From: Alphaproteobacteria bacterium
GTDB taxonomy: Bacteria; Pseudomonadota; Alphaproteobacteria; Micropepsales; Micropepsaceae
DNA length: 64,000 bases
NCBI GenBank assembly: GCA_016124635.1
Contig: WGNJ01000012.1
Span: 62,001-126,000 of the forward strand
Reading direction: 5' to 3'
The notes below the pieces were generated by a model, which saw nothing but the letters and a program-made list of their open reading frames with translations, made no database searches and was not told where the DNA came from. The position numbers and the translations under genes were made by a program. Positions 8,651 to 36,846 of this stretch are shown here, one piece after another (the first letter of the stretch is position 1; every line of letters starts with the position of its first letter).

Positions 8651-9915
8651 AGCGTCTCTTAGCCCGAGTGACGGGCGCCGATACGCCGCACAAGATGAGC
8701 TACGAGGAAGCGCGCACCGCGCTCGAGACGCATGCGCACAAAGCGCGTCTCTTCCTCTCGAAGCAGACTGAAGTCGAGCCGGAGATTCTCTACTACCTTG
8801 CGACCGACGATTCGCCCGACGTGCGCCGCAACGTCGCCGCCAATTCCTCGACGCCGCACAAGGCCGATCACATCCTGACGCGCGACACCGACGACGAAGT
8901 GCGCTGCGAGCTCGCCAAGAAGATCGGCCGCCTCGTGCCGGGCCTCGGCCACGACGAAGCTCATCGCGTTCGCGAGCTTGCGATCGAAGTGATGGAGCGT
9001 CTCGCCAACGACGCTCTGCCGCGCGTGCGCGCCATTCTGGCCGAGGAGATCAAGGCCGCGCAAAACGTGCCGGCACACATCGTCAAGCGCTTGGCGCGGG
9101 ACGTGGAGCTGATCGTCTCGGCGCCGATCCTCGAATATTCGCCGCTGCTGTCCGACGACGATCTGATCGAGATCATCGCCGGTGCGCGCGTGGAAGGCCA
9201 GCTCGCGGCCATCGCGCGCCGCGCCTCGGTCGGCGCCAAGGTCTCGGATGCGATCGTCGCCACGCTCGACGTATCGGCCATCGCCGCGCTGCTCGCCAAC
9301 CCGAATGCGCAGATCCGCGAGGACACGCTCGACCAAGTCGTCGAAAGCGCGGCGGAAGTCGAGGCCTGGCACCTGCCGGTGGTCTTGCGCGCCGATTTGA
9401 GCTTGCGCGCCGTGCGCCGCATCGCGGGCTTCGTGAGTTCCTCGCTCATCGAGCAATTGCAGCAGCGCAGCGATCTCGACGACGAAACCGCCTCGATGCT
9501 GTCGAAGCGCGTGCGCGAGCGTATCGAGGTCGAGAAGTTGAGCGAAGACAGCGAGGCCGCGGACAACGCCGCCGCCGTCGCGGTGCAGGAAGCGATGGCC
9601 GAGGGCCGTCTCGACGACGAATTCGTTCTGACCGCCGTCGATGCCAACGATCGCCGCCTTGTCGCCTTTGCGCTCGCCGCGCTTGCCAAGGTGCCGAAGC
9701 CGACGGTCGATCGCATTTTGATGAGCCAGAGCGGCAAGGCGATCACGGCGTTGATCTGGCGCTGCGGCCTGTCGATGCGCGCCGCGGTCAAGATTCAGAC
9801 GACGCTCGCGCACCTGACGACGGCCAAGATGATCTTGGCGCGCGAAGGCGTCGACTTCCCGATGCCCGCCGAAGAGATGGCCTGGCATCTGCGCTTCTTC
9901 GGCCTCAAGGACTAG
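8644..9915 (+). CDS. DUF2336 domain protein
   Basis: This 423-residue protein matches the alphaproteobacterial DUF2336 family. The N-terminus contains HEAT-like paired helices (SPDVRRNVAANS, DDEVRCELAKKIG) repeated through residues 45-330, and the C-terminus has the family's closing segment KMILAREGVDFPMPAEEMAWHLRFFG (residues about 390-420). No signal peptide or membrane segment is visible. Members are often encoded near two-component or PAS genes. Here the ATG overlaps the PAS gene stop by seven bases (8644-8650), which suggests that this helical scaffold works with that sensor. Confidence 0.75.
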   Translation: MLKRLLARVTGADTPHKMSYEEARTALETHAHKARLFLSKQTEVEPEILYYLATDDSPDVRRNVAANSSTPHKADHILTRDTDDEVRCELAKKIGRLVPGLGHDEAHRVRELAIEVMERLANDALPRVRAILAEEIKAAQNVPAHIVKRLARDVELIVSAPILEYSPLLSDDDLIEIIAGARVEGQLAAIARRASVGAKVSDAIVATLDVSAIAALLANPNAQIREDTLDQVVESAAEVEAWHLPVVLRADLSLRAVRRIAGFVSSSLIEQLQQRSDLDDETASMLSKRVRERIEVEKLSEDSEAADNAAAVAVQEAMAEGRLDDEFVLTAVDANDRRLVAFALAALAKVPKPTVDRILMSQSGKAITALIWRCGLSMRAAVKIQTTLAHLTTAKMILAREGVDFPMPAEEMAWHLRFFGLKD

Positions 9916-9953
9916 CGCGCCAGCTTAGCGTCCCGGCAGCAATGCATCATTGC

Positions 9954-9973
9954 CCTTCTCCCGTGGGAGAAGG
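9954..9973. repeat. Intergenic palindrome of a dispersed GC-rich element
   Basis: A perfect nine-base inverted repeat (CCTTCTCCC, two-base centre, GGGAGAAGG) begins a stretch to about 10060 that resembles the dispersed intergenic palindromic elements widespread in alphaproteobacterial genomes (CCTTCTCCC...GGGAGAAGG...GGATGAGGG). It sits 38 bases after the DUF2336 stop and could also end that transcript, though no T-run follows. Nothing else was found between 9916 and 10102. Confidence 0.6.
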
Positions 9974-10102
9974 TGGCGCGCTGGTGCAAGCAGCGCGACG
10001 GATGAGGGCGGCAGCTCGCACAAACTCTTTCCCCCGATGCCGCTTCGTCGCGGGGCGGTACCAGCCGCGCGTCGTTCTGAACTGAAGCAGTGGAGGTGAG
10101 AC

Positions 10103-10294
10103 TTACCGCCGGTCGCTGGCGGCTCGACCGTTGAGCCCCAACACGGCGCCGATGGCGAGCCCGAGCGCTGGCCCGAACGAAATGCCCATCGCCACGCCGA
10201 GTCCCACATTGCCGAACGCGGCGCCGAATGCGGCTCCCAAAGCCACGCCCAATCCGGCGCCGATCGCCAGTCCAAGACCAAGGTGCAGACCCAT
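10103..10294 (-). CDS. Small glycine-zipper-like membrane protein
   Basis: The 63-residue product is almost entirely glycine, alanine and small hydrophobics from residue 4 to 53, with repeated GxxxG and GxxxA spacing (GLGLAIGAGLGVALGA and similar). This forms one long or two short membrane helices followed by a polar tail (NGRAASDRR). Glycine-zipper proteins of this kind oligomerise in membranes. A GAAGGA ribosome site lies ten bases upstream of the ATG. No homologous function is recognised. The low-complexity composition means the coding call rests on the ribosome site and open frame. Confidence 0.45.
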   Translation of the reverse strand: MGLHLGLGLAIGAGLGVALGAAFGAAFGNVGLGVAMGISFGPALGLAIGAVLGLNGRAASDRR

Positions 10295-10502
10295 CGCCGC
10301 AACGTCCTTCGTTCAGCCGCAGACAGTGGGAATATAGGGCTGCACGCAGCCCATTTACACCCTGAGACATGCTGCAATACGCGCCGCCCCTTCGCTGGAT
10401 TTGTTCTTCTCGGTGTGTGAGTCGTTTTGACTCATGGACGCGGGGGGCACCGCCGACTCAACGTCGCCCGACGCATGCGGAACGCGAGGGGATGCGCGCG
10501 AT

Positions 10503-11099
10503 ATGCCCGACGCTACCTATCATCTGAACGGCGCCTTCAAGCCGACGCTGAAGCGCGTCGCCGATCTCGACGGCCCTGATTACTTTCCGACGCCGCGTTG
10601 GGCGACGCACGCGCTCGTCGACAACGAACACTTCGACAGCGAGATCTGGGAATGCGCGTGCGGCGACGGTGCGATGGCCGAGGTGCTCGCGCGGACCGGC
10701 AACGCCGTCGTCGCAACCGATCTTTATCCGCGCGGCTACGGCGCATCCGGCCACGACTTCCTGAAATCCGAGCGCCGCATCGCGAACATTGTCACCAATC
10801 CGCCCTACAACGTCGCCGAAGCATTCGTCGCGCAAGGCTTGAAACTCGCTGAGAAGAAGCTCGCGCTATTGCTGCGCCTCGCCTTCCTCGAAGGCACGAA
10901 CCGCGCCAACACGATCTTCGCCGAGACGCCGCCCGCGCGCGTCTGGGTGTTTTCGGAGCGCATCACCTTCTACATGGCTGGCGCGAAACGCGCCGGCGGC
11001 GGCACCACCGCATACGCTTGGTTCGTGTGGGACAAAGCGCATGCCGGCGCGACGCAACTCCACTGGCTCAGGCCCGGCTACAAAGCGAAATACGGCTGA
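10503..11099 (+). CDS. Phage-type DNA (adenine-N6) methyltransferase
   Basis: This 198-residue class I SAM-dependent methyltransferase carries the NPPY catalytic motif of adenine-N6 DNA methylases (TNPPYN near residue 101). The SAM-binding motif is the CACGDGAMAEVLA segment near 57-69, and a conserved ATDLYPRGYG loop follows. The C-terminal LLRLAFLEG and RVWVFSERITFY segments are shared with orphan methylases of tailed phages and gene-transfer agents. No restriction enzyme is adjacent and no target-recognition domain is visible, so it is an orphan methylase. ATG10503 (AGGGG eight bases upstream) is preferred to ATG10434. It may be a phage relic or a domesticated methylase. Confidence 0.72.
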   Translation: MPDATYHLNGAFKPTLKRVADLDGPDYFPTPRWATHALVDNEHFDSEIWECACGDGAMAEVLARTGNAVVATDLYPRGYGASGHDFLKSERRIANIVTNPPYNVAEAFVAQGLKLAEKKLALLLRLAFLEGTNRANTIFAETPPARVWVFSERITFYMAGAKRAGGGTTAYAWFVWDKAHAGATQLHWLRPGYKAKYG

Positions 11100-11196
11100 C
11101 GTCATGGAGGTTGGAGAGCGAAAAACGCCGGGGATTTCAAAATTTCGCCGCTGGCCACTTGATCTTCGATTGAAACGCTCGAGCAGTGCCGTCCGC

Positions 11197-11724
11197 TCAG
11201 GCGCCGCTGACCTGGCTTTCGAGTACAATGCGCTCGACCCGTCCATCCTTGGTCCGGACGCGATACTGGAATTCGCTGCGCTCGGCCGGAAGCTGCCGCA
11301 CGACCTCGTAGATCAAGCCGTCCACGGGCAAGCCCATCAGCGTTCGGCAAAGCTTGACCGTCGCGCCAAGCGCGAATTTGTGTGCTGGTGCCCTGGTCTT
11401 GCGCTCGGGCGACGCGACCTCGGGCGAAATCGCCGGGGATACAGCGGCAACGGCCGCCGGTTCGATCACGCGTGCTGCGTTGCGCCGGGCGCGCGGCGAT
11501 GCGGCAAGTTCCTTGGCGCGACGAGTTGTGAGCTCCGCCTCGATCGCCGGTATCAAGGCGTCGGCTGAAGCGCGCTGCCGCTCACTGCCGTTTTGCGCGA
11601 GGCGCATAGCATTCGCGTGCAGCGTATCGAGTTCGCCGTCACTCAAGCCACCTACGCGCTCGCGCATGTCGACGACGACGATCGGTTTGCTTTCGACGGG
11701 AATTCGCGCCGGCTTAATCTTCAT
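11197..11724 (-). CDS. Hypothetical protein with C-terminal FQYR-type small domain
   Basis: The 175-residue protein is soluble. Its N-terminal half (1-75) is helical and basic and its middle is alanine/proline-rich. The C-terminal 60 residues contain a compact domain with the pattern G-x-V...Y-E-V-x-R-x-L-P-A-E...F-Q-Y-R-V-R...R-V-E-R-I-V-L-E-S. The same pattern recurs in the 65-residue protein at 16915-17112, where it stands alone. The domain occurs in small proteins of many rhizobia-like genomes, but I know of no assigned role. The gene lies downstream of cspA on the same strand, separated by a strong hairpin at 11763-11792. Confidence 0.6.
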   Translation of the reverse strand: MKIKPARIPVESKPIVVVDMRERVGGLSDGELDTLHANAMRLAQNGSERQRASADALIPAIEAELTTRRAKELAASPRARRNAARVIEPAAVAAVSPAISPEVASPERKTRAPAHKFALGATVKLCRTLMGLPVDGLIYEVVRQLPAERSEFQYRVRTKDGRVERIVLESQVSGA

Positions 11725-11762
11725 GTGCAGTCCTTGAGCCGGCGTCGCGAGAACTTCGGCGA

Positions 11763-11792
11763 GGGAAGGCGCGATATCTCGCGCGCCTTCCC
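11763..11792 (-). terminator. Strong hairpin ending the cspA transcript
   Basis: An eleven-base perfect inverted repeat (GGGAAGGCGCG / CGCGCCTTCCC, eight-base loop) lies 26 bases downstream of the cspA stop in the minus-strand direction. No clear T-run follows, so termination could be Rho-assisted, or the hairpin could protect the 3' end of the cspA message. It separates cspA from the FQYR-domain gene. Confidence 0.55.
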
Positions 11793-11817
11793 CCTTACTC
11801 AGTCCTTAGAACGGCGA

Positions 11818-12024
11818 TCAAGCCTCGGAGAGGTTGACGGCCTTCGAGCCGCGCGCGTCCGGTTGCACCTCGAACTTGATGCGTTGGCCTTCCGACAGCG
11901 CGCGCATGCCGGCTTGTTCGACGGCGGTGGCGTGGACGAAGATGTCCTTGCCGCCGGCGTCCGGCGTGATGAAACCAAAACCTTTGGATGTATTGAAGAA
12001 CTTCACCGTTCCGGTGATCGACAT
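11818..12024 (-). CDS. cspA: Cold-shock protein, CspA family
   Basis: This is a 68-residue single cold-shock domain protein, the standard length. RNP1 (KGFGFI) and RNP2 (DIFVHA) are both present, which indicates binding of single-stranded RNA or DNA as an RNA chaperone. The start is ATG at 12022-12024 with an AAGGAA ribosome site. The frame stays open upstream, but the domain begins here. The untranslated leader contains a GC-rich hairpin at 12051-12076. Whether the gene is cold-induced or growth-phase controlled cannot be told from sequence. Confidence 0.95.
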   Translation of the reverse strand: MSITGTVKFFNTSKGFGFITPDAGGKDIFVHATAVEQAGMRALSEGQRIKFEVQPDARGSKAVNLSEA

Positions 12025-12050
12025 AGTCACATTCCTTGCAAGCGAGTGTT

Positions 12051-12076
12051 GCCGCCCCGGCGACATGCCCGGGCGG
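12051..12076 (-). promoter_or_regulatory. GC-rich hairpin in the cspA leader
   Basis: A seven-base stem (GCCGCCC / GGGCGGC) with a twelve-base loop lies 26 bases upstream of the cspA ATG. Long structured leaders that refold at low temperature are known for cspA genes. Here only this one stable stem is evident, so a thermosensor role is an inference. Confidence 0.3.
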
Positions 12077-12252
12077 CGTGATAAGCCAACCAACCGTTGA
12101 GAAGGATTTTAAGCCGTCTTAAGCGAAAGAGCCCTTGAACCGGTTTTGGTTATGCGGGCGTGCAGCCGTCACGGGCCGCAATATAGTCTGCGTGCCGGTC
12201 TTTGACCACCGAAATCGCCGCAAGCGCCGGGATAGCGCCCATTGTCCGCTGT

Positions 12253-12450
12253 TCAGAGCAGCGTGTACTGCCCCAATTCGCGCCCGGTTTCATTGAAAAT
12301 CTTGAAGCTGTCGGGCGCGTTGCCGCGGTGGCGCGAGCTGACGTCGGCGGCACAGCGCCGCGCCGCAGCCACGACCTCGCTGAGCAGCGCGAGCTCGCTC
12401 GTTTGCTTCTCGACGAGCTTGCGGCCATTGAGCCAGTGGATGCCGAACAT
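12253..12450 (-). CDS. Small conserved protein, IHWL family, copy 1
   Basis: The 65-residue soluble protein starts MFGIHWL and ends with FKIFNETGRELGQYTLL. A helix of about 25 residues (SELALLSEVVAAARRCAADV) links the two. The protein at 18228-18431 is a clear paralog with the same start, spacing, SRHR motif and closing FKIF...GRELG-Y segment. A ribosome site AGAGGTG precedes the ATG by six bases. The function is unknown. The conserved ends around a helix suggest a small folded domain rather than a spurious frame. Its neighbours are cspA and a small membrane protein. Confidence 0.6.
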   Translation of the reverse strand: MFGIHWLNGRKLVEKQTSELALLSEVVAAARRCAADVSSRHRGNAPDSFKIFNETGRELGQYTLL

Positions 12451-12570
12451 GGAATCACCTCTCGTTGGTTGAGAGCCACGCTACGCCTGCCGCGCGCGGA
12501 AAGCATCGATCGAATCTCTAAGACGCGAGTTCGATCGGCTTTGCCGCCACGCGCTAAAGCCATGCTGTCG

Positions 12571-12768
12571 TCAGGAATGCGAATCCGCGTGCGACCAGCG
12601 CAGCAGCATCACCGCGATGATCCCGAAGATGCCAGCCGTGAACCAGCCCGCGAGCGCCGGCACGTCGTACGTGCCAATTCTGACCACAAGGTTGAAGTAG
12701 CCGATATAGCCGCCGAGCGCCGCGACGAGGAAAAGCAGCACGGCTCCAGTGAACGCAACACGATGCAT
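12571..12768 (-). CDS. Small two-helix inner-membrane protein
   Basis: The 65-residue product has two predicted membrane helices: residues 7-29 (GAVLLFLVAALGGYIGYFNLVV) and about 36-56 (DVPALAGWFTAGIFGIIAVMLL). A short polar tail follows. The very good ribosome site AGGAAGGA precedes the ATG with eight-base spacing, which supports real translation. No family is recognised. It is transcribed towards the IHWL gene about 120 bases away and could share its transcript. Confidence 0.6.
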   Translation of the reverse strand: MHRVAFTGAVLLFLVAALGGYIGYFNLVVRIGTYDVPALAGWFTAGIFGIIAVMLLRWSHADSHS

Positions 12769-13457
12769 GAACGATATCCTTCCTGAGTTGTGTCGTTGTG
12801 TGTTTGAGGCGATGCGAGAAAAGAGTGCAGTCCGCGCGCGCGGTTCGCTCGCGCGGGCAGCGACGACGCGGCTGAAATTGGACAGAGCGGCTCTAGGGAC
12901 AGCGCGTCACGCGCGCGAAGAGGCGGTCGGCCAACAATGGTTATGTGGAAATCGACTGCAAACGAGGCGGCCGCAACAGCGCAGCCCAATCGTCGATCCC
13001 ACCGGGCCTGTTCCCAAGGGTCAAAATTATCTTAGCGCTTTTCGCAAGCTGGCGCCATCCTGGCCGGTATCGTCGAATGCGCCAGGCCGTCAGCCTTAAC
13101 GCGGGCTGAACACAGCGCCATCCCTCGGGTCGCTGCCGACTGCTTCAGATTTCGGCCGCCGTCCCGTAGCGTCATCCCGTCCGCCGCTCCAGACAAATGC
13201 GGATGGACCCATTCGCGTGCGCAAGCTTTGGACCGCGTCCGATCCGAGTGAAGTGGTCGGCGACCTTCACTGCGCCGTTCACTGACGCGGTGGGTGCCGA
13301 GTGTCAACTGCCGTGGAATTGTCGCGGCAAGATGGATGCGGCAGCGTCCACATTGATTGCGCGACGGCCTTGTAATCACCGAAAGCGTGCCTAGTTTCCA
13401 CCTTGGTTTGGATGACAGTCATTCAAATTTTTTTCCTTAGATTTTGGAGATTTCAAA
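12769..13457. other. 690-base stretch without a supportable gene
   Basis: Short open frames occur on both strands, but none has a good ribosome site, coding-like codon bias or a recognisable motif. The stretch must contain the promoters for the divergent small membrane protein and CsbD-like gene. I searched for the GGAAC-N16/17-CGTT promoter of EcfG-type sigma factors, which might link these genes to the sigma gene at 14376, and found no convincing copy. No tRNA or stable RNA structure was recognised. Confidence 0.5.
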
Positions 13458-13673
13458 ATGACGAACCCGTCGCCGATTACGCCGAGCGCAGACAATGGCA
13501 AGCAAGCCGTGCTCAAAGACATTCACGCGAAATGGAACAAGTTCTCCGAACAGGAGTTGGCCGCGCTGACCGGACGCGACGATCTGGTGACCCAGGTGGC
13601 TGCGAAATACGGTCAGGAGAAGGGCTTGGCGCAACGCGACGTTGATGCGCTGCTCAAGGGCCGCACGATCTAA
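13458..13673 (+). CDS. CsbD-like small stress protein
   Basis: The 71-residue, highly charged helical protein has the CsbD layout: an N-terminal K-x-I-H-A-K-W-N-K-F segment, a central helix (EQELAALTGRDDLVTQVAAKYG) and a short closing helix. CsbD-like proteins are typically induced by general stress or osmotic shock, but their molecular role is unsettled. The ATG is preceded by GGAG with ten-base spacing. A good intrinsic terminator follows at 13699-13722, so the gene is probably monocistronic. The nearby EcfG-like sigma gene makes stress control plausible but unproven. Confidence 0.65.
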   Translation: MTNPSPITPSADNGKQAVLKDIHAKWNKFSEQELAALTGRDDLVTQVAAKYGQEKGLAQRDVDALLKGRTI

Positions 13674-13698
13674 GCGGGCATTCACGTCCAGGATTGGA

Positions 13699-13722
13699 AG
13701 CAGGTTCCCGGCGGAACCTGCT
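13699..13722 (+). terminator. Intrinsic terminator after the CsbD-like gene
   Basis: A ten-base perfect stem (AGCAGGTTCC / GGAACCTGCT) with a four-base CGGC loop starts 26 bases after the CsbD-like stop. It is followed by CCTTTCT, a short pyrimidine tract. The position and symmetry fit a factor-independent terminator. Confidence 0.75.
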
Positions 13723-13933
13723 CCTTTCTCACGAACGCACGGTCAAAAGACACGGCCGCAGCTGTATGCTGATAGGCGCTCTCGCCGCTAGTGACCATTC
13801 GATCAGATACCGCGACGTCGGGACTTCGGCTGCTCCCTCAAAAGCCCGAGCGCGTGCCGATCTAGCTATCTCATAGATGGGATCTCGGCATCGAGCATTT
13901 ACTCACAAAACAAGGGATCGTTGGTGCGGCGCC

Positions 13934-14146
13934 ATGGCAAAGAATTTCTGTTTCGATCGCGTCACCTGGATTCCTGCGACGATTGACCTCAAACACACGT
14001 ATTTGGCACGCAGAATATCGGAGGCACAGCGCGGACTCTGGGCGGTCAAGCAAGGCATGGCGCCGAGCGCATCGTGGGAACAGATCATTGATCGCAGATC
14101 GCAGCGGACTGCAGAGGATCGATTTGTCTCGGAAGCCGCGCCCTAG
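13934..14146 (+). CDS. Possible small hypothetical protein
   Basis: An open frame of 70 codons starts at ATG13934 (an earlier start at 13877 is also possible). The product is basic and soluble (MAKNFCFDRVTWIP...) with tryptophans spread along it, and no motif is recognised. Codon third positions are less GC-biased than in neighbouring core genes and no convincing ribosome site is present. It is included because the flanking 700 bases (13674-14375) otherwise hold only the CsbD terminator and the sigma-gene leader. It may be noise. Confidence 0.25.
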   Translation: MAKNFCFDRVTWIPATIDLKHTYLARRISEAQRGLWAVKQGMAPSASWEQIIDRRSQRTAEDRFVSEAAP

Positions 14147-14375
14147 CCGTTTGAAAGGCTGTCGTGGCTTCGAAACGGCCGCAAAGAGCGATCTTCCGCG
14201 CAGTCGAACGTGCCGGCCCTACTTAAAGAACTGAGCCGTCGGTCAACGAAGACGTTGTCGGACTTCGCGACACGACAGATTTGAAAATGGTGTGGGAAGG
14301 CGTCGAATTTTCCCTTCCTGCGCCTGCGCGCGAGACGTGCAGCACGACGCTTGACAACCTTCTCGGAGAAAGCAC

Positions 14376-15005
14376 TTGAACGCTCGATTGATCGACTTCC
14401 TTGACGACAGCGATTCCGCGCGCGTGCTACCCAATTTCTCGGACGAATTGGTCGCGGTCATTCCGCATCTTCGGGCGTTTTCACGTGCGTTGTGTCGGGA
14501 GCGAGGCTTGGCCGACGAAATGACCCAGGAGGTGCTGGCGAAAGCTTGGCGATCGCGCCGTTCGTTCGAGCCCGGCACGAACCTAAGAGCCTGGGCCTTC
14601 ACCATACTCAGAAACGAGTTCTACTCCGGGCTACGGCGCAGCTGGCGCGAGGTGGGTTGGGAGGCGGGTAAGTTCGCGCTCGTCGCAGGTCCCGGCAACG
14701 TTCAACAATCGGCGATAGAGCTCAGCGATACGGTGCGGGCTATGAGCGTATTGCCACGTGCTCAGCGTGACGCGCTGATCCTCGTCGGAGCCGGCGGCTT
14801 CAGCTATGAGGAGGCTGCGGCGATCTCCGGCACGCGTAGTGGCACAATGAAGAGTCGGGTGGCGCGTGCGCGCATTGCAATACGCGCGATGCTTGACGGC
14901 CATGCGCCGATGCCCGTCCGATCATCGATAAATGTAAGCGGCGCCTACGGCGATGTGCTGGCGCAACTGAGCACTCTACAAGCCAATAGCCACGCACTGC
15001 GTTAG
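14376..15005 (+). CDS. ECF sigma factor, EcfG-like
   Basis: This 209-residue sigma-70 family factor has region 2 at about 28-95 (LRAFSRALCRERGLADEMTQEVLAKAWRS and NLRAWAFTILRNEFYS) and region 4 at about 120-175 (LPRAQRDALILVGAGGFSYEEAA, then GTMKSRVARAR). The FSYEEAA segment and the ILRNEFYSGLRR stretch resemble EcfG, the general-stress sigma factor of alphaproteobacteria. It starts at TTG14376, seven bases after a GGAG site; no ATG lies in a better position. About 30 residues after region 4 are non-conserved. No NepR anti-sigma or PhyR gene lies nearby, so it is probably a secondary EcfG paralog. Confidence 0.85.
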   Translation: MNARLIDFLDDSDSARVLPNFSDELVAVIPHLRAFSRALCRERGLADEMTQEVLAKAWRSRRSFEPGTNLRAWAFTILRNEFYSGLRRSWREVGWEAGKFALVAGPGNVQQSAIELSDTVRAMSVLPRAQRDALILVGAGGFSYEEAAAISGTRSGTMKSRVARARIAIRAMLDGHAPMPVRSSINVSGAYGDVLAQLSTLQANSHALR

Positions 15006-15117
15006 CGCAGAAAAAGAAGTTTTGACGCTTGGCAACTTTGCGACGGTGGCGTCGCTGGTTCATGGACTGCTGCAGCACGAAGCACCGTCAACAACAATTC
15101 GCACTCCAGAAGACCCC

Positions 15118-15339
15118 ATGCGCAACGATTTGAAGTCGGCTTACAAGGGCGACCTTACGATAACGATGTTCGTTTTGACGGTCGCCGCCGTCGGCGTCGT
15201 TTTCTTTCTTCGCTATGCGGGCGATCTGCCTTCATCCGATACCCGAGTTACAGAAGAGGCCTCGAACCTCGGCTGTCATGAGATCATCGAGCGAACGATG
15301 AGCGGTCCCCGTCAAAGCTGCGGCAGCGTCCTCGTCTAG
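15118..15339 (+). CDS. Possible small single-pass membrane protein
   Basis: A 73-codon frame from ATG15118 encodes a short charged N-terminus (MRNDLKSAYKGD), one membrane helix at about 13-33 (TITMFVLTVAAVGVVFFLRYA) and a short polar C-terminal tail with two cysteines. The ribosome site is weak. It lies 112 bases downstream of the sigma-factor gene on the same strand, which would be the position of an anti-sigma partner. The protein has none of the features of NepR or of zinc-finger anti-sigma factors, so no role is assigned. Confidence 0.35.
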   Translation: MRNDLKSAYKGDLTITMFVLTVAAVGVVFFLRYAGDLPSSDTRVTEEASNLGCHEIIERTMSGPRQSCGSVLV

Positions 15340-15544
15340 CGAAAGCGTTGCTTCGGCCCGGCAAATCGCGCCGCCTGTTGCGGGCACGAAGAAGCGGCGG
15401 TGAACTCAAGGCCAAGGGATGTACGCGATCGCGGGAGCTGCGCCGGTCCGATTGCTGTTCGCAACTAATCAAGTGATGCTGTCGAACAAGTGCTAGGGTC
15501 TTCCCAGCCTTCGGCATTTTCGATTCCCTGTGCCGCGGGTCTGG

Positions 15545-15574
15545 GCCGATGGAAGGTGCGGACTTTCCATCGGC
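15545..15574. other. Perfect inverted repeat in the 15340-15691 gap
   Basis: GCCGATGGAA at 15545-15554 and TTCCATCGGC at 15565-15574 form a perfect ten-base inverted repeat with a ten-base spacer. It could be an operator or a hairpin terminator for either flanking gene. It has no T-run. The rest of the 350-base gap 15340-15691 shows no supportable gene. Confidence 0.4.
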
Positions 15575-15691
15575 TCAAATTGTTCGAAGAGCCATGCGGT
15601 AGGGCGAATGTCCGCGCCCCAAGCAGCAGCGCGCGTGCCGCAACTTTGGCAAATCCGCGCATCGTTGAGCGCGCGCTTCTATCGGCAGAGG

Positions 15692-15979
15692 TCAGTGGGC
15701 GGCGTCGCGCCGTTGCGCGCGAGCGAGGTCTGCAGGTGCGATGCGCACGACTTCGACTGATTCGAAGCGGTCCGCCCTCGCCGAGATCGAGCGTCGTTCG
15801 AGATAAATGGGCAGCACGATTGAAGTCGAGACACGGCGATAGGCCAGAAACGATAGGCCTTGGATGGGCTCCTCCTCGGTCATGATCCGATAATCGCCTG
15901 GCGGCAGTTCACGATCGATGCCCTCGATCGTGAACGAATGAGCGAAGCGGACGACGCTCTCGGTGGTGCGCATTGTCAT
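15692..15979 (-). CDS. Conserved hypothetical protein (small, beta-rich)
   Basis: The 95-residue soluble protein has the pattern F-x-I-x-G-x-x-x-x-L-P-P-G-D-Y-R-I-x-T-E-E-E-x-I-x-G-L-S-F-x-A-Y-R-R, which I recognise as recurring in unannotated proteins of rhizobia-like genomes. Alternating hydrophobics suggest a small beta fold. Its ATG overlaps the stop of the upstream coiled-coil gene by four bases (15976-15979), so the two are translationally coupled. The function is unknown. Confidence 0.65.
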   Translation of the reverse strand: MTMRTTESVVRFAHSFTIEGIDRELPPGDYRIMTEEEPIQGLSFLAYRRVSTSIVLPIYLERRSISARADRFESVEVVRIAPADLARAQRRDAAH

Positions 15980-16296
15980 GCGTCCGGCGTGCGCTTGTCG
16001 ATGCCGTCTTCGGTGAGGCGGCGCAAGTCCTCAAGGACGTTGGCAATGAGGGTTTTGCGCCGCGGATCGCGGGCCGCGGGCGTGGCGGCCAACAGGGAGA
16101 TCAGATACCGCGCTTTTTCACCCGCCTCGACCCATGTTGCGGACGGGGCGGCTACGAGCAGCTTCTCGAGTTCTTCCTGGCGGGCCTTTAGCGCGGCTTG
16201 ATCGGCTTGGATCTCGGCCAGCTCACGACGAAGCACCGTGGCTTTTTGCGCTGCCATGCCGCGATGTGCGTCGAGTTTGATTGTCTCAGAGGTCAT
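15976..16296 (-). CDS. Coiled-coil hypothetical protein
   Basis: The 106-residue protein has a strong predicted coiled coil at about 15-48 (KATVLRRELAEIQADQAALKARQEELEKLL is split by no proline) followed by a helical C-terminal half with basic residues. An excellent AAGGAG ribosome site precedes the ATG by seven bases. It is the first gene of a two-gene minus-strand operon with an ATGA overlap to the next. The coupling suggests a complex between the two products. No family name is recognised. Confidence 0.65.
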   Translation of the reverse strand: MTSETIKLDAHRGMAAQKATVLRRELAEIQADQAALKARQEELEKLLVAAPSATWVEAGEKARYLISLLAATPAARDPRRKTLIANVLEDLRRLTEDGIDKRTPDA

Positions 16297-16396
16297 TCGA
16301 TAGCTCCTTGAACGCGTTCGACGCGGAACTCAAGCGCGCGCTGAAATCCGGGTTCATCTTCCGCAAACGGTAGAATTCAAAGTGCAAAATAGTACT

Positions 16397-16462
16397 GTTC
16401 AAAAAAACATCGAGGGCATTTGCGAGCAATATTTCAAATACTTGATATTTTATTTTTTGAAC
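16397..16462. repeat. Ten-base inverted repeat in an AT-rich patch
   Basis: GTTCAAAAAA at 16397-16406 and TTTTTTGAAC at 16453-16462 are exact inverted copies 46 bases apart. They lie inside a patch (about 16375-16520) far richer in A and T than anything else in the window. The patch sits between the divergent coiled-coil gene and the gene at 16496. It may hold promoters or operators, or be foreign DNA. Confidence 0.5.
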
Positions 16463-16495
16463 GGGCGATTTTCATCTCGACAAACAAGGGTGCGG

Positions 16496-16783
16496 ATGCT
16501 AATTATTACCGAACTATTCCAACAAATCATTGCAGATGCGGCTTTCTCCGCCGCCGAGGACTTGTTTTTGCGAATCACGGAAATCTTAGAATTGGGCTAC
16601 GAATTGCGGCGCAAGGCCGAGCACAGCGGCGTGGACGTGAACGCCTCGCATCTCATGGTACATGCCGTGATGGTGCGCGCGTTCCGAGACGAGCCTGGCT
16701 CGTTCAAGCGTAGCGACTTGCAGGAGGCGCTCTCGGCTGAGTTGCGCAGCAGACTCACGCGGCACGACATCGCGAGCCCCTAG
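16496..16783 (+). CDS. Small helical hypothetical protein
   Basis: The 95-residue product from ATG16496 is mostly alpha-helical, with hydrophobic heptads at 5-40 and the segment VNASHLMVHAVMVRAFRDEPGS near 50-70. The frame is open up to 16382, but that part translates an AT-rich patch with unlikely codon use, so the internal ATG (AAGG seven bases upstream) is preferred. No domain is recognised. It is followed after 130 bases by the small FQYR-domain gene. Confidence 0.45.
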   Translation: MLIITELFQQIIADAAFSAAEDLFLRITEILELGYELRRKAEHSGVDVNASHLMVHAVMVRAFRDEPGSFKRSDLQEALSAELRSRLTRHDIASP

Positions 16784-16914
16784 ATGCGCAGTCATCAAGC
16801 GTGCCGCAGCGGGCGCCTCATCTGGGCGACCTGCGCATTGGCCGCGCACGGCTGCCTTCCGGACGTTCCGGTCCGGCGGGCGAAAACCGTGTGCGCGCAC
16901 GGATCGAGGTATTC

Positions 16915-17112
16915 ATGAGCAGCGGAAGCCGACACAAATTCAAGATCGGTTGCAAGGTTCGCATCGACCGGAGCGCATTCGGCGCGCCGCTCGAAGCTGG
17001 CATGTTTGAGGTGACGCGACTCTTGCCCGCCGCCAACGGTGACTTTCAGTATCGCATCAGGTCGCTCGACGGGCGCATTCAACGCGTGGTTTTGGAGAGC
17101 TGCTTGCTGTGA
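16915..17112 (+). CDS. Stand-alone FQYR-type small domain protein
   Basis: The 65-residue product consists of only the compact domain found at the C-terminus of the protein at 11197-11724. Shared features are the K/G-x-x-V start, L-E/V-x-G-x-F-E-V-x-R-L-L-P-A, D-F-Q-Y-R-I-R-S and R-I/V-x-R-V/I-V-L-E-S. ATG16915 is preceded by GAGG with six-base spacing. Its stop overlaps the GTG of the desaturase gene (GTGA, 17109-17112), so it is translationally coupled to a membrane enzyme and could be a regulatory or accessory partner. The function is unknown. Confidence 0.6.
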   Translation: MSSGSRHKFKIGCKVRIDRSAFGAPLEAGMFEVTRLLPAANGDFQYRIRSLDGRIQRVVLESCLL

Positions 17113-18125
17113 GCGACATCGCGACCTCGGGTGCCCTTCGTTTGGCGGTGGCGAAGTTTCGAACCCCCACGGTCGCTAAGAGTGTAAGTCAGCTTGTCAC
17201 GGCTTTTGTCCCGCTGATCGCCCTCTATGCGGCTTCCTACATCGCCGTCACCTATCAAGCGCCGTGGTGGGTCGTTGCGGCGCTAGCGGTTCCGGCCGCG
17301 GCGTTCATCGTACGAATTTTCATTTTTCAGCATGATTGCGGTCACGGCGCGTTCTTCCGCTCGGCGCGCGCGAATCGCTGGACCGGCATGCTGTGCAGCC
17401 TGGTGACGCTCACACCGTATGAGAGCTGGCGTCGGCAACATGCCGGGCATCATTTGCATTGGAACGACTTGGACAACCGCAACAGCGGCACCGACATCTA
17501 CTCGACGTGCCTGACAATGAAGGAATTTGAGGCGCTGAGCCCGTCGCAGCGCCTTTTCTACCGCTTCATTTGGCATCCGCTCGTCTCATTAATGTTGCTG
17601 CCGCCGCTCGTGTTCCTCGTTCTTTATCGGCTGCCGTTCGACATGCCGCGCAGCTGGAAGCGCGAACGTCGATCCGTCATGGTGACGAACATTGCCTTGG
17701 CCGTCCTGTTCGGAGCGCTGGTCGCCATTTTCGGTTGGCGCACGGTTGCGGTCGTTCACCTGCCGATTGCGGCGATCGCCGCAATGATCGGCGTGTGGAT
17801 GTTTTCGCTCCAGCATCGTTTCGACGGCGCCATCTGGGCGCGCGCCGACACATGGAGCTCGGAATCGGCTTCGCTTGCCGGCAGCTCCCATCTCGTATTG
17901 CCCAGAGTGCTGCAATGGTTCACCGGCAACATCGGCTTTCACCACATCCATCATTTGGATCCGCGGGTGCCGAACTACCGTCTCGAGGCGTGTCACCGCT
18001 CCGATCCGGTTTTCGCAGCGGCACCAACGGTGACGTTGGGCCAGGGTTTGTCGGCGATGCGCTACTGCCTGTGGGACGAAGACCGTCAGGCTCTGGTGCG
18101 CATGCCGAAGTTGAATTGGCGCTGA
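17109..18125 (+). CDS. Membrane fatty acid desaturase
   Basis: This 338-residue integral-membrane di-iron desaturase has three histidine boxes: HDCGH at 75-79, HAGHH at 111-115 and HHIHH at 278-282, the last in the NIGFHHIHHLDPRVPNY signature of delta-12/omega-type acyl desaturases. Membrane helices are at about 28-48, 52-72 and pairs near 155-175 and 190-225. It should introduce a double bond into membrane acyl chains using oxygen and ferredoxin or a similar donor. It begins at GTG17109 overlapping the FQYR-domain gene. Adjustment of membrane fluidity would fit the cold-shock and stress genes nearby, but that link is inference. Confidence 0.85.
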   Translation: MSDIATSGALRLAVAKFRTPTVAKSVSQLVTAFVPLIALYAASYIAVTYQAPWWVVAALAVPAAAFIVRIFIFQHDCGHGAFFRSARANRWTGMLCSLVTLTPYESWRRQHAGHHLHWNDLDNRNSGTDIYSTCLTMKEFEALSPSQRLFYRFIWHPLVSLMLLPPLVFLVLYRLPFDMPRSWKRERRSVMVTNIALAVLFGALVAIFGWRTVAVVHLPIAAIAAMIGVWMFSLQHRFDGAIWARADTWSSESASLAGSSHLVLPRVLQWFTGNIGFHHIHHLDPRVPNYRLEACHRSDPVFAAAPTVTLGQGLSAMRYCLWDEDRQALVRMPKLNWR

Positions 18126-18227
18126 CGGGCGGCGGCTATGCCCGACAGCCCTTCGATCTCGGCGAGTAAGGTGCCGATGAATTTGCGAAACGCTGACGTT
18201 TGGGGCGCGCTCGCGGAAAGGAAGCAA

Positions 18228-18431
18228 ATGTTCTCCATCCACTGGTTGCACGAGCGCACGGTCGTCCAGCGGCAAGACAGCGAGTTCTCGCTGCTTGCCG
18301 ACATCCTGTCGGAGGCTCGCGAGAGCGTCGATGCAGTCAGGTCGCGGCATCGCTGCAACAAGCCGCAGACGTTCAAGATATTCGATCCGGGTGGTCGCGA
18401 GCTCGGCCACTATCCTGTTTGGAACGATTGA
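18228..18431 (+). CDS. Small conserved protein, IHWL family, copy 2
   Basis: The 67-residue paralog of the protein at 12253-12450 starts MFSIHWL and ends with FKIFDPGGRELGHYPVWND. It keeps the central helix and the S-R-H-R motif. ATG18228 has an AAAGGAAG ribosome site, and the frame open further upstream is unlikely to be translated. It lies 102 bases after the desaturase stop and overlaps no other gene. The pair of paralogs shows about half identical positions, so the duplication is old or the copies were acquired separately. Confidence 0.6.
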   Translation: MFSIHWLHERTVVQRQDSEFSLLADILSEARESVDAVRSRHRCNKPQTFKIFDPGGRELGHYPVWND

Positions 18432-18465
18432 CCTCGCCCGCCGTCAGCGACGCACAGGGGCGCCG

Positions 18466-18990
18466 GTGAAACGCGCCACCGTGCATCTCGTCGCCAAGAC
18501 CTTCGTCGGGTTTGCGGTGCTGGCGCTGGGCATGATGTTCTTGTCAAAAGCCGGCCCGGCCTGGGCTGAGCCGCAAGAAATAGGATCGTGGTCGCTCTCG
18601 CGGCTATACGATGGTGGGTACAGCAACGGCGCCGGCGGTCTGAACCGCGACATCACGAGCGATCTCTTTCGGCTCGCGATCACCGCGGACGCGGGCACAC
18701 TTCACATCGAAGAGACGATTACGATTTCATCGCTTGCCGGCAGCAGTGAGAAGACCGAACGGTATTCGATCGCGATATCGAACATAAAAGCGGTTTCTGT
18801 GCACCCGCCGACTCGGCCAAATCGCGGCCCGTTCCTGCAAATCGAGATGTTCTCGAACGATCTGGTCGTGCGAAGCGACCCGAGTGCGATCGCCGTTGTC
18901 GCGTCCTCGGTGAATTTGGACTTTGATGTCGGCGACGGCGCGACGGCCGCTGCCGTTCAACAGAAACTCCAAAGCCTGGTGAATCGATAG
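18466..18990 (+). CDS. Exported hypothetical protein
   Basis: The 174-residue product begins at GTG18466 (AGGGG five bases upstream) with a Sec signal peptide: basic start, hydrophobic core FVGFAVLALGMMFL, and a probable cleavage after AWA near residue 34. The mature part is beta-rich with repeated hydrophobic alternation (FRLAITADAGTLHIEETITIS, then IEMFSNDLVVRS), compatible with a small periplasmic domain. No cysteines or metal motifs stand out and no family is recognised. It is followed by 1 kb of decayed mobile DNA. Confidence 0.6.
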   Translation: MKRATVHLVAKTFVGFAVLALGMMFLSKAGPAWAEPQEIGSWSLSRLYDGGYSNGAGGLNRDITSDLFRLAITADAGTLHIEETITISSLAGSSEKTERYSIAISNIKAVSVHPPTRPNRGPFLQIEMFSNDLVVRSDPSAIAVVASSVNLDFDVGDGATAAAVQQKLQSLVNR

Positions 18991-19036
18991 CGCGAGACAA
19001 CTTGCGTTGACGCAGCTATCCCGTAGTTCTTTCTCT

Positions 19037-19180
19037 CTACGGAATGTCTCGTATGGGCCATCTCGCGCCGAAACTCAGATTTCGGCGAATGGCCTTGAGC
19101 CCTTCGCCTTTCTTCCAACGCTCCCAGAGCTCGGCGCTCTGCGCTGCTGTGAACCCTACGCGACGATATTTGCGCCTCAT
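19037..19180 (-). pseudogene. IS30-family transposase, N-terminal fragment
   Basis: A 47-codon frame from ATG (19178-19180) gives a product starting MRRKYRRVGFTAAQSAELWE, followed by RWKKGEGLKAIRR. This matches the N-terminal helix-turn-helix region of the IS30 transposases common in alphaproteobacteria (TAAQ-x-AELW-x-RW-x-x-GE-x-x-KAI). The frame then loses similarity and stops, and no DDE catalytic region follows, so only about a tenth of the gene remains. The sequence upstream in the minus direction (19200-19235) may be the left end of the element. The insertion site itself is not resolvable. Confidence 0.65.
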
Positions 19181-19417
19181 GGCTGCCGCTCCACGTCCTC
19201 AAACCAAGGTACGTGTTGCGTCGATCAGTTGAACTCACCCCCCAAAAGCGGACAGATGGCTGGATCGTTACGAATGACAGAATGCGGATGTATTGCGGCC
19301 AGTCGGCACGCGCGCGCAATGCCTGTTTCCTTATGGAGGGTCCATCTGATGGTGCGTAGGCAGTTTGGCGGCGCCGACCTTCGAAAGGTAGCCAATCACG
19401 AAAACTACTTGATTGCG

Positions 19418-19700
19418 CATTGCGAATATAGCAATATGATCGCAAATTGCGCCGGCCAGAACCGGCGTCGCTCATTGAACCTGTGAATAGGTGCTGGTCA
19501 CCCGCTTGGGCTTTCGCTCTTGCTGACGGGAACGTGGACCGCGCGCAGCCGTCGGATGTCGCTTTCGATCTGTGCAGCCGAGTGGCCGGGTAAAGCCCGT
19601 CCATGACGAACATTTTTGTGCGAGCTTCATCCGTCACGCGTGCGAGCTTTCGTGACGCTTTTTTCGGCTGAAATCTGCCCTTGTGCGAATGTGCGAACTT
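19418..19700. repeat. Dispersed repeat, copy 1 (same family as 45555-45794)
   Basis: This stretch shares a chain of matching blocks, in the same order and orientation, with 45555-45794. They begin with CATTGCGAATATAGCAA and pass through CGCTCATTGA, GCTCTTGCTGACGGGA and ATCCGTCACGCGTG. They end in TTGTGCGAATGTGCGAACTT, the longest exact block at 20 bases. The two copies have diverged and differ by insertions. The first block contains an inverted ATTGC / GCAAT pair resembling a regulator-binding site. No gene is convincing in either copy, although copy 1 is open on the minus strand. Confidence 0.65.
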
Positions 19701-19856
19701 GAGGTGCGTTTTGCGCGCGGCCCGCTCCATCCGCCCCGTCTGTGCATACACTTGTGTGAGGATATGTAGCGGATGAAATGGCGGAATTCCGCCGATGTAG
19801 CGGATAAACGGGGGCATGGGTGAATCCTACGCATGGTGGTCTGCGCCACCCCCTCC

Positions 19857-19944
19857 GTCGCGCTTCGCGCGACACCTCCCCCGCTTGCAGGGGAGGAAAC
19901 AACGGCTGCGGCAAGCGACGCGTCCCGCAAGCAGGGGAGGAAAC
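19857..19944. repeat. Cluster of GC-rich intergenic palindromes
   Basis: Two adjacent hairpins, GTCGCGC-TTC-GCGCGAC (19857-19873) and CCTCCCC / GGGGAGG (19875-19896), are followed by a second partial copy of GCAGGGGAGGAAACAA (19888-19903 and 19929-19944). Similar palindromic blocks are scattered between genes in many alphaproteobacteria. The rest of 18991-19998 contains the IS30 fragment and a dispersed repeat but no intact gene. Confidence 0.55.
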
Positions 19945-19998
19945 AAAGGGTGCGTGGGAAGAGAGTAGGCCTCGAAAGCGTCGGGGCCTGATCGCAGA

Positions 19999-21219
19999 TC
20001 ACTGCGCCGGCGGTTGCTGCCCTGGTTCTTCCTTACGGAATTCGAAGGTGACGCCGGGCCGGTCGCCGGTGTCGATTTGCAGGAAGCCGGTCTTGCGGAA
20101 GCCGCGCCCCTCGCAATCCTCCGCCCCCTCGATCTCGAAGATCTGCGCGCGCGTGCAGAAATTGAACGCGCCCGACCACGGCTTGTCTTGGGCATCGCCG
20201 CCGCGCTCGGCGAACGCGTAGACGAAGCGCTCGCTCAGGCGGTCGCGGATCACCTTCTCGCATTGGCCGGGCTGCAAGTGCCACCAGCCTTTGCTGACCT
20301 TCTTGCCTTGCGTTTCCTGCGCCAGCGCCGCCCACACCGCGTCCGGCGTCCGGTTGCAGAACGTCAGGCCGAGCAGCGCCTGCGCGTTCTTCGCCGCGTC
20401 GTGCAGCTTGTTGTAGGTCGTCGCCGCATCGGCGGTCGCCGGAATGTCATACGCGGTGCGCGCCGCCGCCAGCGCTTCGGCGAGCTTCGGCGATTGCGAG
20501 CCGTCGATCTCGCCTTGATATTGGCCGAGATCGGAGAGCAAGCGCTGATAGCCCGCAATGCGCGCCTGCTCGAGCGTTTTGAAGGTGCCGTTCTCCGACA
20601 GCGTCGTCGTCCAGCCCGGTTTGCCGCCGGTGTCGACTTTCGCAAAGCCTTGCGCTTCGAGGCCCGGACCGCAGGTGTCGCTGCCGTCGCTCGTTGCCTC
20701 GAACTGCAGCTTGCCGATGCACAGCGTCTGCGTTCCGCCCCACGTGCGGATCGGTCCCGAATGCGCGAACGATGTGCGCGCGAAGGTGTAGTAGGCCTGC
20801 TGCGAGAGCTTGCCCTTGATCACCGTCGTGCATTGTCCGGCGGGCACCGGCCACCAGCCGCGCGTCGCCCAAAAGCCCGAGCTCTGGCGGATGCCGACGG
20901 AGACCTGCAGCTCGTACGAGGTGAGATTGCAGAAGCGATAGTCGGTGTCGTGCTTCGCGGTGAGCATGCTCTCCGGCGAGCCTGCGGTCGGGATGCTCAC
21001 GATCTTGGCGCCGTGCGAGCGCGGCTTCGCGGGCTTCTCCGGCTTCTCTTGCGCGGGCTGCGCCGCCGTCGACGTCGATGCGCCGGGCTTGATCGGAAGC
21101 AATACGGGCCGCGCCGGCTCGCCCGCTGCCGGCGTCTGCTCGTCCGGCTGCGCCCACGCAACGCTCGTTGCGCAAACAATACCGGCGACAGTTGCTCGAA
21201 GCGCGGATGAAAGCGTCAC
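19999..21219 (-). CDS. Exported protein with two DUF1036-like domains
   Basis: The 406-residue product starts at GTG21219 with a signal peptide ending near residue 23 (SVAWA). A proline/alanine-rich linker follows to about residue 85. Two related modules come next, near 90-200 and 285-400, each with F-C-N-x-T, a W-W-x-x-x-P-G-Q-C segment and a later C-x-G or F-C pair. This is the cysteine pattern of DUF1036. A helical segment at 215-280 separates them. The protein is periplasmic or surface-exposed, and the cysteines probably form disulfides. It lies 26 bases downstream of argB on the same strand and may be the last gene of the rpmH operon. The function is unknown. Confidence 0.75.
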   Translation of the reverse strand: MTLSSALRATVAGIVCATSVAWAQPDEQTPAAGEPARPVLLPIKPGASTSTAAQPAQEKPEKPAKPRSHGAKIVSIPTAGSPESMLTAKHDTDYRFCNLTSYELQVSVGIRQSSGFWATRGWWPVPAGQCTTVIKGKLSQQAYYTFARTSFAHSGPIRTWGGTQTLCIGKLQFEATSDGSDTCGPGLEAQGFAKVDTGGKPGWTTTLSENGTFKTLEQARIAGYQRLLSDLGQYQGEIDGSQSPKLAEALAAARTAYDIPATADAATTYNKLHDAAKNAQALLGLTFCNRTPDAVWAALAQETQGKKVSKGWWHLQPGQCEKVIRDRLSERFVYAFAERGGDAQDKPWSGAFNFCTRAQIFEIEGAEDCEGRGFRKTGFLQIDTGDRPGVTFEFRKEEPGQQPPAQ

Positions 21220-35476: not shown

Positions 35477-36508
35477 ATGAGCAAACCTGGCCCCTTGAAT
35501 CTCATCACCGACGTCGAAGGTATCACGGTCGGCAACGCTGAAAATGCGACAGCCTTGACCGGCACGACCGTCCTTTTAACAGGCACGCGCGCGATTGGCG
35601 GCTGTGATGTGCGTGGCGGGGCTCCGGGATCGCGCGAGACGGAATCGCTGAGGCCTGAGGGACTGGGCACCGGCGTCGATGCGATCACGTTGTCGGGAGG
35701 CTCTGTTTACGGCCTCGACGCGGCATCCGGCGCGCTTGCTTGGCTCGCATCCCGCAAGATCGGATTTCGTCTTCCGCAATCCGACATCGCGCTGCCGATC
35801 GTGCCAGGTGCGATTCTCTTCGACATCGCGAACGGCGGCGACAAGAACTGGGGATACGAGCCGCCCTATCGCCGTCTCGCCGAAGAAGCATGCGAGCGTG
35901 CCGGCAAGCAATTCGCGCTCGGCAACGCGGGTGCCGGCTACGGCGCTGTCGCGGGCGCCTACAAGGGCGGCCTTGGTTCGGCGTCTGCGGTGACGGAGGA
36001 CAGTTATACGATCGGCGCGCTCGCCGCGGTGAACGCGTTCGGCTCACCTGTGATTCCTGGCACCTCGGCATTGTGGGCCTGGACGTTCGAACAGAACGGC
36101 GAGCTCGGGCGGCAGAAGCCGCCGCGTCCGAGCGAGATCGCGATGGACTTCCCCGACGATATCAAACGTCCGCCGCAACCTGCCGCCAACACCGCGATTG
36201 CCATCGTGGCGACCGATGCCGCGCTGACGCCGTCGCAAGCGCGCCGCGTCGCCGTGATGGCGCACGACGGATTTGCGCGCTCGCTGCGTCCCGTCCACAC
36301 GCCGGTCGACGGCGACATCGTCTTTGCCGTTTCGACCGGAGCGAAGCCGCTCGCCGACCCCTGGCAATTCACCGTCGGCCGTATCGGTTCGATCGCGGCG
36401 GACTGCTTGGCGCGAGCCGTCGCTCGCGGCGTCTTCGAGGCCGAACCCCTTGGCCGCTTCCAAAGCTATCGCGCTGCGCACGCCGCAGGATTCGAGCAAC
36501 GCCGCTGA
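35477..36508 (+). CDS. P1-family peptidase (DmpA/aminopeptidase type)
   Basis: The 343-residue Ntn-fold self-processing aminopeptidase has the family signatures G-G-S-V-Y-G-L-D near 72-79, G-N-A-G-A-G-Y-G-A near 152-160, K-G-G-L-G-S-A-S with the nucleophilic serine near 165-172, and A-x-N-A-F-G near 189. P1 peptidases hydrolyse N-terminal beta- or D-amino acids or amides. The ATG (35477) faces the ggt ATG (35460) with 16 bases between, so the promoters must lie within the opposite coding regions or the true starts are further inside. Its transcript may run into the EF-Tu leader region. Confidence 0.85.
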   Translation: MSKPGPLNLITDVEGITVGNAENATALTGTTVLLTGTRAIGGCDVRGGAPGSRETESLRPEGLGTGVDAITLSGGSVYGLDAASGALAWLASRKIGFRLPQSDIALPIVPGAILFDIANGGDKNWGYEPPYRRLAEEACERAGKQFALGNAGAGYGAVAGAYKGGLGSASAVTEDSYTIGALAAVNAFGSPVIPGTSALWAWTFEQNGELGRQKPPRPSEIAMDFPDDIKRPPQPAANTAIAIVATDAALTPSQARRVAVMAHDGFARSLRPVHTPVDGDIVFAVSTGAKPLADPWQFTVGRIGSIAADCLARAVARGVFEAEPLGRFQSYRAAHAAGFEQRR

Positions 36509-36537
36509 ATTCGTTCGCGCACAGACGATGCGTGCCC

Positions 36538-36566
36538 TTGATTTGTGGCGCTTGCGCTGTTATTTG
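36538..36566 (+). promoter_or_regulatory. Candidate promoter for the EF-Tu paralog leader
   Basis: TTGATT (36538-36543) and TTATTT or TATTTG (from 36560-36561) are spaced 16-17 bases apart, about 25 bases before the first short ORF. Both boxes are only partial matches, so the call rests mainly on position. Confidence 0.3.
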
Positions 36567-36590
36567 CCCCGCCGAAATCAGGCGACAGTG

Positions 36591-36671
36591 ATGATCAAGG
36601 TGGCATTCGGACAGGCATTCGGCGCGGCGGCTTTGGCCGGCGCATCCGAATCCTATTGCCTCATCGCATAA
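36591..36671 (+). CDS. Possible 26-residue leader peptide (module 1)
   Basis: A 27-codon frame, ATG36591 to TAA36671, encodes a small hydrophobic peptide beginning MIKVAFGQAF and ending YCLIA. The ribosome site is weak (CAGG nine to ten bases upstream). It is followed after one base by GCCTC (36673-36677), which can pair with GAGGC (36689-36693). That element can instead pair with GCCTC at 36699-36703, and an intrinsic terminator starts at 36718. The arrangement copies that of a transcription attenuator. The codon content gives no obvious amino-acid bias. Confidence 0.35.
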   Translation: MIKVAFGQAFGAAALAGASESYCLIA

Positions 36672-36717
36672 CGCCTCTTGGCATTCGGGAGGCTCAAGGC
36701 CTCTCCGCAGCGTGACG

Positions 36718-36752: not shown

Positions 36753-36789
36753 CATGCGCGCCGAGCGGCGCGCGAACGAAGGAAAGAGC

Positions 36790-36843: not shown

Positions 36844-36846
36844 ACG

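Follow-up and report, generated by a model that had tools for sequence, protein, structure and literature searches.

The repeat that occurs twice in the window, as the whole 64,000-nucleotide stretch of DNA analysed here is called, is one ordered, non-coding unit present at 27 places in the genome. It couples a covarying leader, containing a block which matches the leaders of rRNA operons, with arrays of short repeated words, and diverged forms of it occur in two or more species of the genus. Where a comparison could be made, the element forms the right-hand border of accessory DNA. The two copies are tentatively read as belonging to a repeated transcription unit that encodes no protein, is controlled by a repressor and may serve accessory DNA as a mobile anchor; this reading is given a probability of roughly 0.45.

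The genome is a 4.51-Mb assembly of 35 contigs, 92.8% complete and 2.0% contaminated, and contamination is an unlikely source of the 27 places because they are spread over 17 contigs. These were obtained from whole-genome searches with copy 1, copy 2 and a model of the leader (R1, described below), after merging of the pieces, and copies are labelled by contig, copy 1 being C13a and copy 2 C13b. The preliminary description had noticed ordered blocks common to both window copies in the same orientation, the longest stretch of exact identity being 20 bases (TTGTGCGAATGTGCGAACTT), and the alignment bears this out; genome-wide searches retrieve copy 2 from copy 1 at E 1.4e-22 and copy 1 from copy 2 at E 1.2e-22, far beyond chance. 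The genome-wide count it called for thus returned both further copies and a significant alignment, the opposite of what would have spoken against a repeat. The limits first proposed, 19418-19700 and 45555-45794, proved too narrow, as the unit covers about 19409-19816 in copy 1 and about 45546-45800 in copy 2. The minus-strand frame reported over copy 1 is indeed there (18957-19817, 286 aa); it has no Pfam match, and its breakage in copy 2 therefore has little weight as evidence. Throughout the family the parts, named M5, M2 and M3, keep a constant orientation, with the leader M5 ahead of the arrays. Rfam returned nothing above the family cut-off in the window except a tRNA, and zero matches above cut-off in five loci; a search of ten loci at E up to 5 gave three sub-threshold matches, among them Cis8_sRNA (E 4.1), which covers the copy in locus L022.

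A promoter-like stretch, recognised by eye and in an alignment of 17 copies, opens the unit and follows a family pattern of a TTGACA-like hexamer, 17 nt and a CAATAT- or CAAGAT-like hexamer. It reads TTGATT - 17 nt - CAATAT in copy 1 (19409-19437, plus strand) and TTGACT - 17 nt - CAAGAT in copy 2 (45546-45574, plus strand). The dyad described earlier is likewise real: ATTGC-N7-GCAAT, operator-like in appearance, is found at 19419-19435 in copy 1 (core from 19420), and ATTGC-N7-GCAAG at 45556-45572 in copy 2 (core 45557-45571). A TTGC-N7-GCAA dyad overlaps the promoter-like stretch in 15 of the 27 copies. The proposed XRE-type operator has its dyad, placed over the putative promoter, and the protein that binds there may be of this or another type; in a congener, four of seven copies have a LexA-type box at this position instead. 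Strict consensus scans found neither a promoter nor a terminator site in copy 1 or copy 2, and because they were empty for both window copies, the promoter and the termination of the unit are treated here as putative.

M5 comprises the promoter-like stretch with its dyad, a first hairpin, a block of the form CGCTC(A/T)TTGA..GTGAAT and a second hairpin. In copy 1 the structured leader occupies 19447-19534 on the plus strand (84.6 bits with R1): hairpin 1, variable in sequence and conserved in pairing, at 19449-19468, the boxA-like block CGCTCATTGAACCTGTGAAT, located with a profile, at 19469-19488, and hairpin 2, of the form CCCGC..GGGC/GCTC..GC..GGG, at 19501-19530, all on the plus strand and both hairpins supported by covariation. 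The leader of copy 2 lies at 45585-45676 on the same strand (67.2 bits), with the boxA-like block at 45609-45628. R1, a covariance model of M5 built from 11 copies, recovers 19 M5 copies in the genome, all with E values of 4e-10 or lower, and E rises to 0.099 at the next match; 8 of the 27 places have no R1 match and hence no full leader. In the alignment of the 19 copies, which was fitted to R1 and is hence biased towards that model, 95.7% of cells are paired, compared with 77.8% in shuffles and 31-57% when the partner is slid by 1-3 columns. Compensatory change affects 10 of 16 pairs, double changes amount to 49 cells against 16.3 in shuffles, and in the predicted transcript six of the seven pairs of hairpin 1, just before the boxA-like block, show a double change. 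An earlier suggestion of a structured RNA is supported for the M5 part by this covariation, but individual copies show no folding advantage over shuffles (z 0.66, -1.81, 1.07, 0.20 and -0.93).

None of 95 other genomes of the family matched R1 at E 0.001; at E 0.01 a weak match appeared in three of 60 relatives, in or beside protein genes, and by eye these are tentatively read as chance. Taking this result as absence of the element from relatives is ruled out by the congener's own version, found with the boxA profile, and its existence means that R1 counts reflect the variant of this genome. The exact M5 pattern matched once among genome contigs, in a contig of a Synechococcus metagenome-assembled genome (L087, 4543-4582).

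The link to rRNA leaders comes from G020, a member of the same family with two rRNA operons, whose leaders differ upstream and both contain CGTTGATTGACATTGTAATTGC. In each leader, the boxA-like profile built on the 19 copies scores highest at precisely that sequence (22.5 bits), a value reached by none of 2000 letter shuffles per leader. On both strands of 1.59 Mb of the congener G002, only 2 of 3,171,334 positions score as high, and both belong to that congener's own elements. M5 accordingly contains a boxA-type sequence related to those of rRNA leaders. The published gamma-proteobacterial consensus is GYTCTTTAANA (PMC5725501), and the order boxB-boxA-boxC is described for rRNA leaders in PMC10250234. 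Of 12 relatives searched, 11 yielded no 16S gene, and neither did this genome, whose own rRNA leader for this reason does not enter the comparison. A lone boxA-like match (21.7 bits) lies at 44481-44500 of the window, 1.1 kb before copy 2, with the rest of the element absent.

Following the leader, M2 and M3 consist of related 11-12 bp words arrayed around a palindrome. In copy 1 the M2 array spans 19617-19703 (E 3.2e-25) and the M3 array, with the palindrome GGCGGAATTCCGCC, 19741-19816 (E 4.1e-24); copy 2 has M2 at 45711-45797 (E 1.5e-24) and lacks M3, all on the plus strand. Seven forward words were counted in the arrays of copy 1, and four forward words with one weak reverse match in copy 2. 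M2 occurs at 23 of the 27 places and M3 at 13, and the two match each other weakly (best E 0.001). Their order is M5-M3-M2 in five copies (C34b, C29b, C19b, C6 and C7, the M2 of C7 being weak) and M5-M2-M3 in another five (C13a, C11a, C25b, C25a and C9). The idea of an intrinsic terminator in M2 was set aside, as the terminator scan was empty and the words swap places between copies. The M3 and M2 patterns each had 0 matches in viral contigs, and a blastn search of plasmids and phages with copy 1 gave no match. The M2 array of C9 (L011/L025, contig C9 at about 15.2-17.3 kb) is interrupted by some 2 kb of IS-like DNA, which by eye is flanked by CTTGCGTG at either end.

The congener version was delineated with a profile iterated from two seeds, which yields seven copies in 1,585,800 bp of G002, none above E 4e-16, with the eighth match at E 0.017. 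Judged by eye, these copies have the boxA block, a second hairpin unlike that of the present genome, TGTAACGGC-like words in arrays, a tail rich in G and an end of the form TTCGCA..TTCGCAAC; a palindrome is often present as well. Four places in G002 (C7 51843, C24 97183 and 290240, C44 3839) contain, again by eye, extra words of the type GCTGTAAATTT..AATTTACAGCG between leader and array. In four of the seven copies GTTC-N7-GTTC stands 48-53 bp upstream of the boxA block, where 0.004 occurrences per 120 bp are expected; two reports give this motif as the SOS box of Caulobacter (PMC9578287, PMC4211646). None of the 27 copies of the present genome has this LexA-type box. The M2/M3 arrays are probably sites for a protein which differs from species to species.

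The surroundings of the element were compared with G002, for 8 of the 27 copies with both flanks collinear, at loci chosen for holding elements and over 39% of this one congener. Extra DNA lies to the left of the element in five of the eight, measuring 1.1 kb at C29a (against 61 bp in G002), 4.9 kb at C34a (379 bp), 5.4 kb at C34b (32 bp), 6.5 kb at C19a (79 bp) and 10.1 kb at C13a; the other three (C4a, C11b and C16) consist of the element only, without cargo, and no copy of the eight has a large block to its right. Unmatched DNA to the right of the arrays does not exceed about 0.35 kb except beside C11b, where it measures about 0.5 kb. For five of five extra blocks to fall on one side, p is 0.06 two-sided. 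The 10.1-kb block with copy 1 at its right end (9912-20014) is absent at the corresponding site in the congeners G002 (72 bp) and G001 (56 bp), and also in G004, where the left match stops earlier. Extra DNA without an element also exists at the same loci, in pieces of 1.8-2.7 kb (window 36492-38312, L114 4764-7451, L122 6068-8129). The piece at 36492-38312 of the window, 1.8 kb absent from G002, contains a 512-aa minus-strand ORF without Pfam match.

At C16 about 280 bp, element included, face 1 bp in G002. The earlier idea of a non-autonomous mobile element finds partial support in this insertion, in the lack of any recombinase among the 17 ORFs scanned in the copy-1 island and in the position of the nearest of six Phage_integrase matches in the genome, about 34 kb from a copy; against it, no terminal inverted repeats came to light, the ends of C16 showing none by eye, and a target duplication is suggested only by eye, by a 7-bp repeat, GGCGCGA, on either side of that copy. 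Partial duplicates of M5 further to the left were recorded for two copies, C25c/C25b (88% over 183 bp) and C11a (86% over 88 bp, at -6.3 kb). Immediately right of copy 1, at 19850-19955 of the window, are palindromic G+C-rich repeats of the CACCCCCTCC..GGGGAGG type, and stretches like these are found at many sites in congeners as well as beside other copies.

The composition of the flanks is asymmetric as well. Over 2 kb, the upstream side has a lower G+C content than the downstream side in 19 of 24 copies (60.0 vs 64.0%, Wilcoxon p 1.6e-5; C25b, C9 and C22 were dropped), and in G002 it is lower in five of seven, in one by 0.2 points only. The copy-1 block itself has a G+C content of 57-65%. 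Pieces of this island, e.g. 10504-11091, have 72-78% matches elsewhere in congeners, and its cargo is consequently not simply foreign. The right neighbour of C19b (92% protein identity), which by eye looks like guaA, has in G002 an element of its own at the same 3' edge, with different DNA to the left. C34c had been considered as a second site common with the congener, and the comparison gave no support for it.

Virus-defence genes occur in two of the tested blocks, namely the Avs2 gene of C34b, a single-gene insertion at L122 9615-14285 (PADLOC, 1662 bits), and a set of Mrr, MT-A70 and BglII-type genes in C34a, while a glyoxalase occupies C29a and glycosyltransferases C19a. In the copy-1 island, 2 of the 17 ORFs scanned had Pfam matches, which mark an ECF-type sigma factor and a desaturase of fatty acids. 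Candidate cargo without a mapped boundary includes a type III restriction system at C21a, a DUF2971 gene at C29b, at C19b a protein that has a cyclase domain and a ThsB-like match, and, 4.3 kb left of copy 2, a DUF3800 gene (40068-41267, plus strand, 28.4 bits at a cut-off of 21). Other copies have genes for ordinary enzymes beside them.

Under the preferred reading of a regulated unit serving as anchor, an operator would cover the promoter, a TTGCG-N5-CGCAA-type dyad in this genome and a LexA box in some congener copies, and the transcript leader would fold as hairpin - boxA - hairpin, which is the plan of an rRNA leader. Such a leader may convert RNA polymerase to its Nus antitermination form, and the antiterminated enzyme would then read through the untranslated M2/M3 arrays. 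The unit could insert alone; accessory DNA would subsequently settle and be exchanged upstream, and the downstream neighbour would remain a host gene. Direct observation covers the number of copies, the arrangement of their parts, covariation, the agreement of the boxA-like block with rRNA leaders, the congener's homologous family with its LexA-type boxes, and the one-sided extra DNA at the copies compared; transcription, Nus binding and mobility are inferred, as is the role of the unit, and not of chance, in causing the one-sidedness.

This order of events has to be weighed against the arrival of element and cargo together, the element being the right end of a mobile unit, either a cassette with a 3' site or a one-ended transposon whose right end stays constant and whose left end varies. 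The congener sites of C13a, C34b, C19a and C29a, which lack element and cargo alike with only the few bases given above between the flanks, are what joint arrival would leave, and for 20 of 26 copies the nearest upstream gene call shares the orientation of the element, on rough gene calls. However, C4a, C11b and C16 hold the element only, cargo differs at the site common to both species, and no recombinase appeared among the ORFs scanned. Nor was a common left end found: five left-end stretches of 390-400 bp contained four weak words, compared with a background of about 0.5 per 400 bp, and the same scan gave no support for a two-ended transposon with Tn7/Mu-type ends and mirrored words. Joint arrival is accordingly judged unlikely, if still deserving of attention. 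The element may also be an ordinary dispersed intergenic repeat of BOX or Correia type, its one-sidedness arising from small numbers and from a place downstream of genes. Its modular, multi-copy and intergenic nature agrees with this, as do the islands without elements and the choice of loci for the elements they hold, but the G+C asymmetry does not, and an rRNA-type leader behind a regulated promoter exceeds the needs of a passive repeat; this account seems slightly less likely still.

Two further explanations were weighed. A family of regulated small RNAs, acting as sponges or antisense RNAs and independent of the neighbouring DNA, would fit the covarying leader, the regulated promoter-like region and repeated words able to bind a protein as RNA; yet the word arrays recombine and are exchanged between copies and diverge between species, and the places without a full leader are at odds with it, making it a very improbable reading. 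The decayed toxin-antitoxin locus with an XRE-type operator, raised in the preliminary description, draws on the genuine dyad and on the ParE-type system under BoxA control in C. koseri, as related in PMC5725501. Against it stand the minus frame, which has no Pfam match, conservation that resides in structure and words, and the flanks of the copies, in which no common protein gene was found in a scan that covered part of the small frames; it is not supported on these grounds and is given hardly any chance.

A wider reading, more doubtful than the anchor itself, would place the element in a new, fast-evolving class: a transcription unit that codes for no protein and is governed by stress or a repressor, whose leader antiterminates in the manner of rRNA and whose arrays differ between species, and which acts as a landing pad where defence and other accessory genes are gained and exchanged upstream. 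Titles and abstracts in the literature searched, from which most subscription papers were absent, describe nothing of the kind. If the proposed explanation is true, rRNA-type antitermination operates in a dispersed element, outside rRNA, phage and CRISPR transcripts, and is tied there to SOS control; the element would offer a sequence handle on the entry points of accessory genes, including anti-phage systems, in these chromosomes, and the rapid change of words between congeners would point to an unknown protein evolving with them.

Several known systems share part of this design. The BOX elements of Streptococcus and the Correia elements are short, modular, intergenic and present in many copies, as is the element, which differs in its rRNA-type leader, its regulated promoter region and its one-sided extra DNA, no terminal inverted repeats being seen. 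Integron cassettes place a non-coding attC site at the 3' side of an accessory gene, and the element too has accessory genes followed by a non-coding site on that side; however, attC core motifs were not recognised in it by eye, no Phage_integrase gene is near the copies, and it has a promoter-like region of its own and a boxA-type leader. With SOS-controlled elements, such as LexA-repressed prophages and integron integrases, it shares the upstream LexA-type box seen in four of the seven congener copies, but no protein-coding gene was found under that putative promoter, and the box is absent from all 27 copies of this genome. The leader of rRNA operons is matched both in the order of promoter, GC-rich hairpin and boxA-type block and in sequence, through the two leaders of G020. 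In contrast to that leader, the element is not followed by rRNA: a second conserved hairpin and the word arrays stand in its place, and an operator-like dyad or a LexA-type box lies across its putative promoter.
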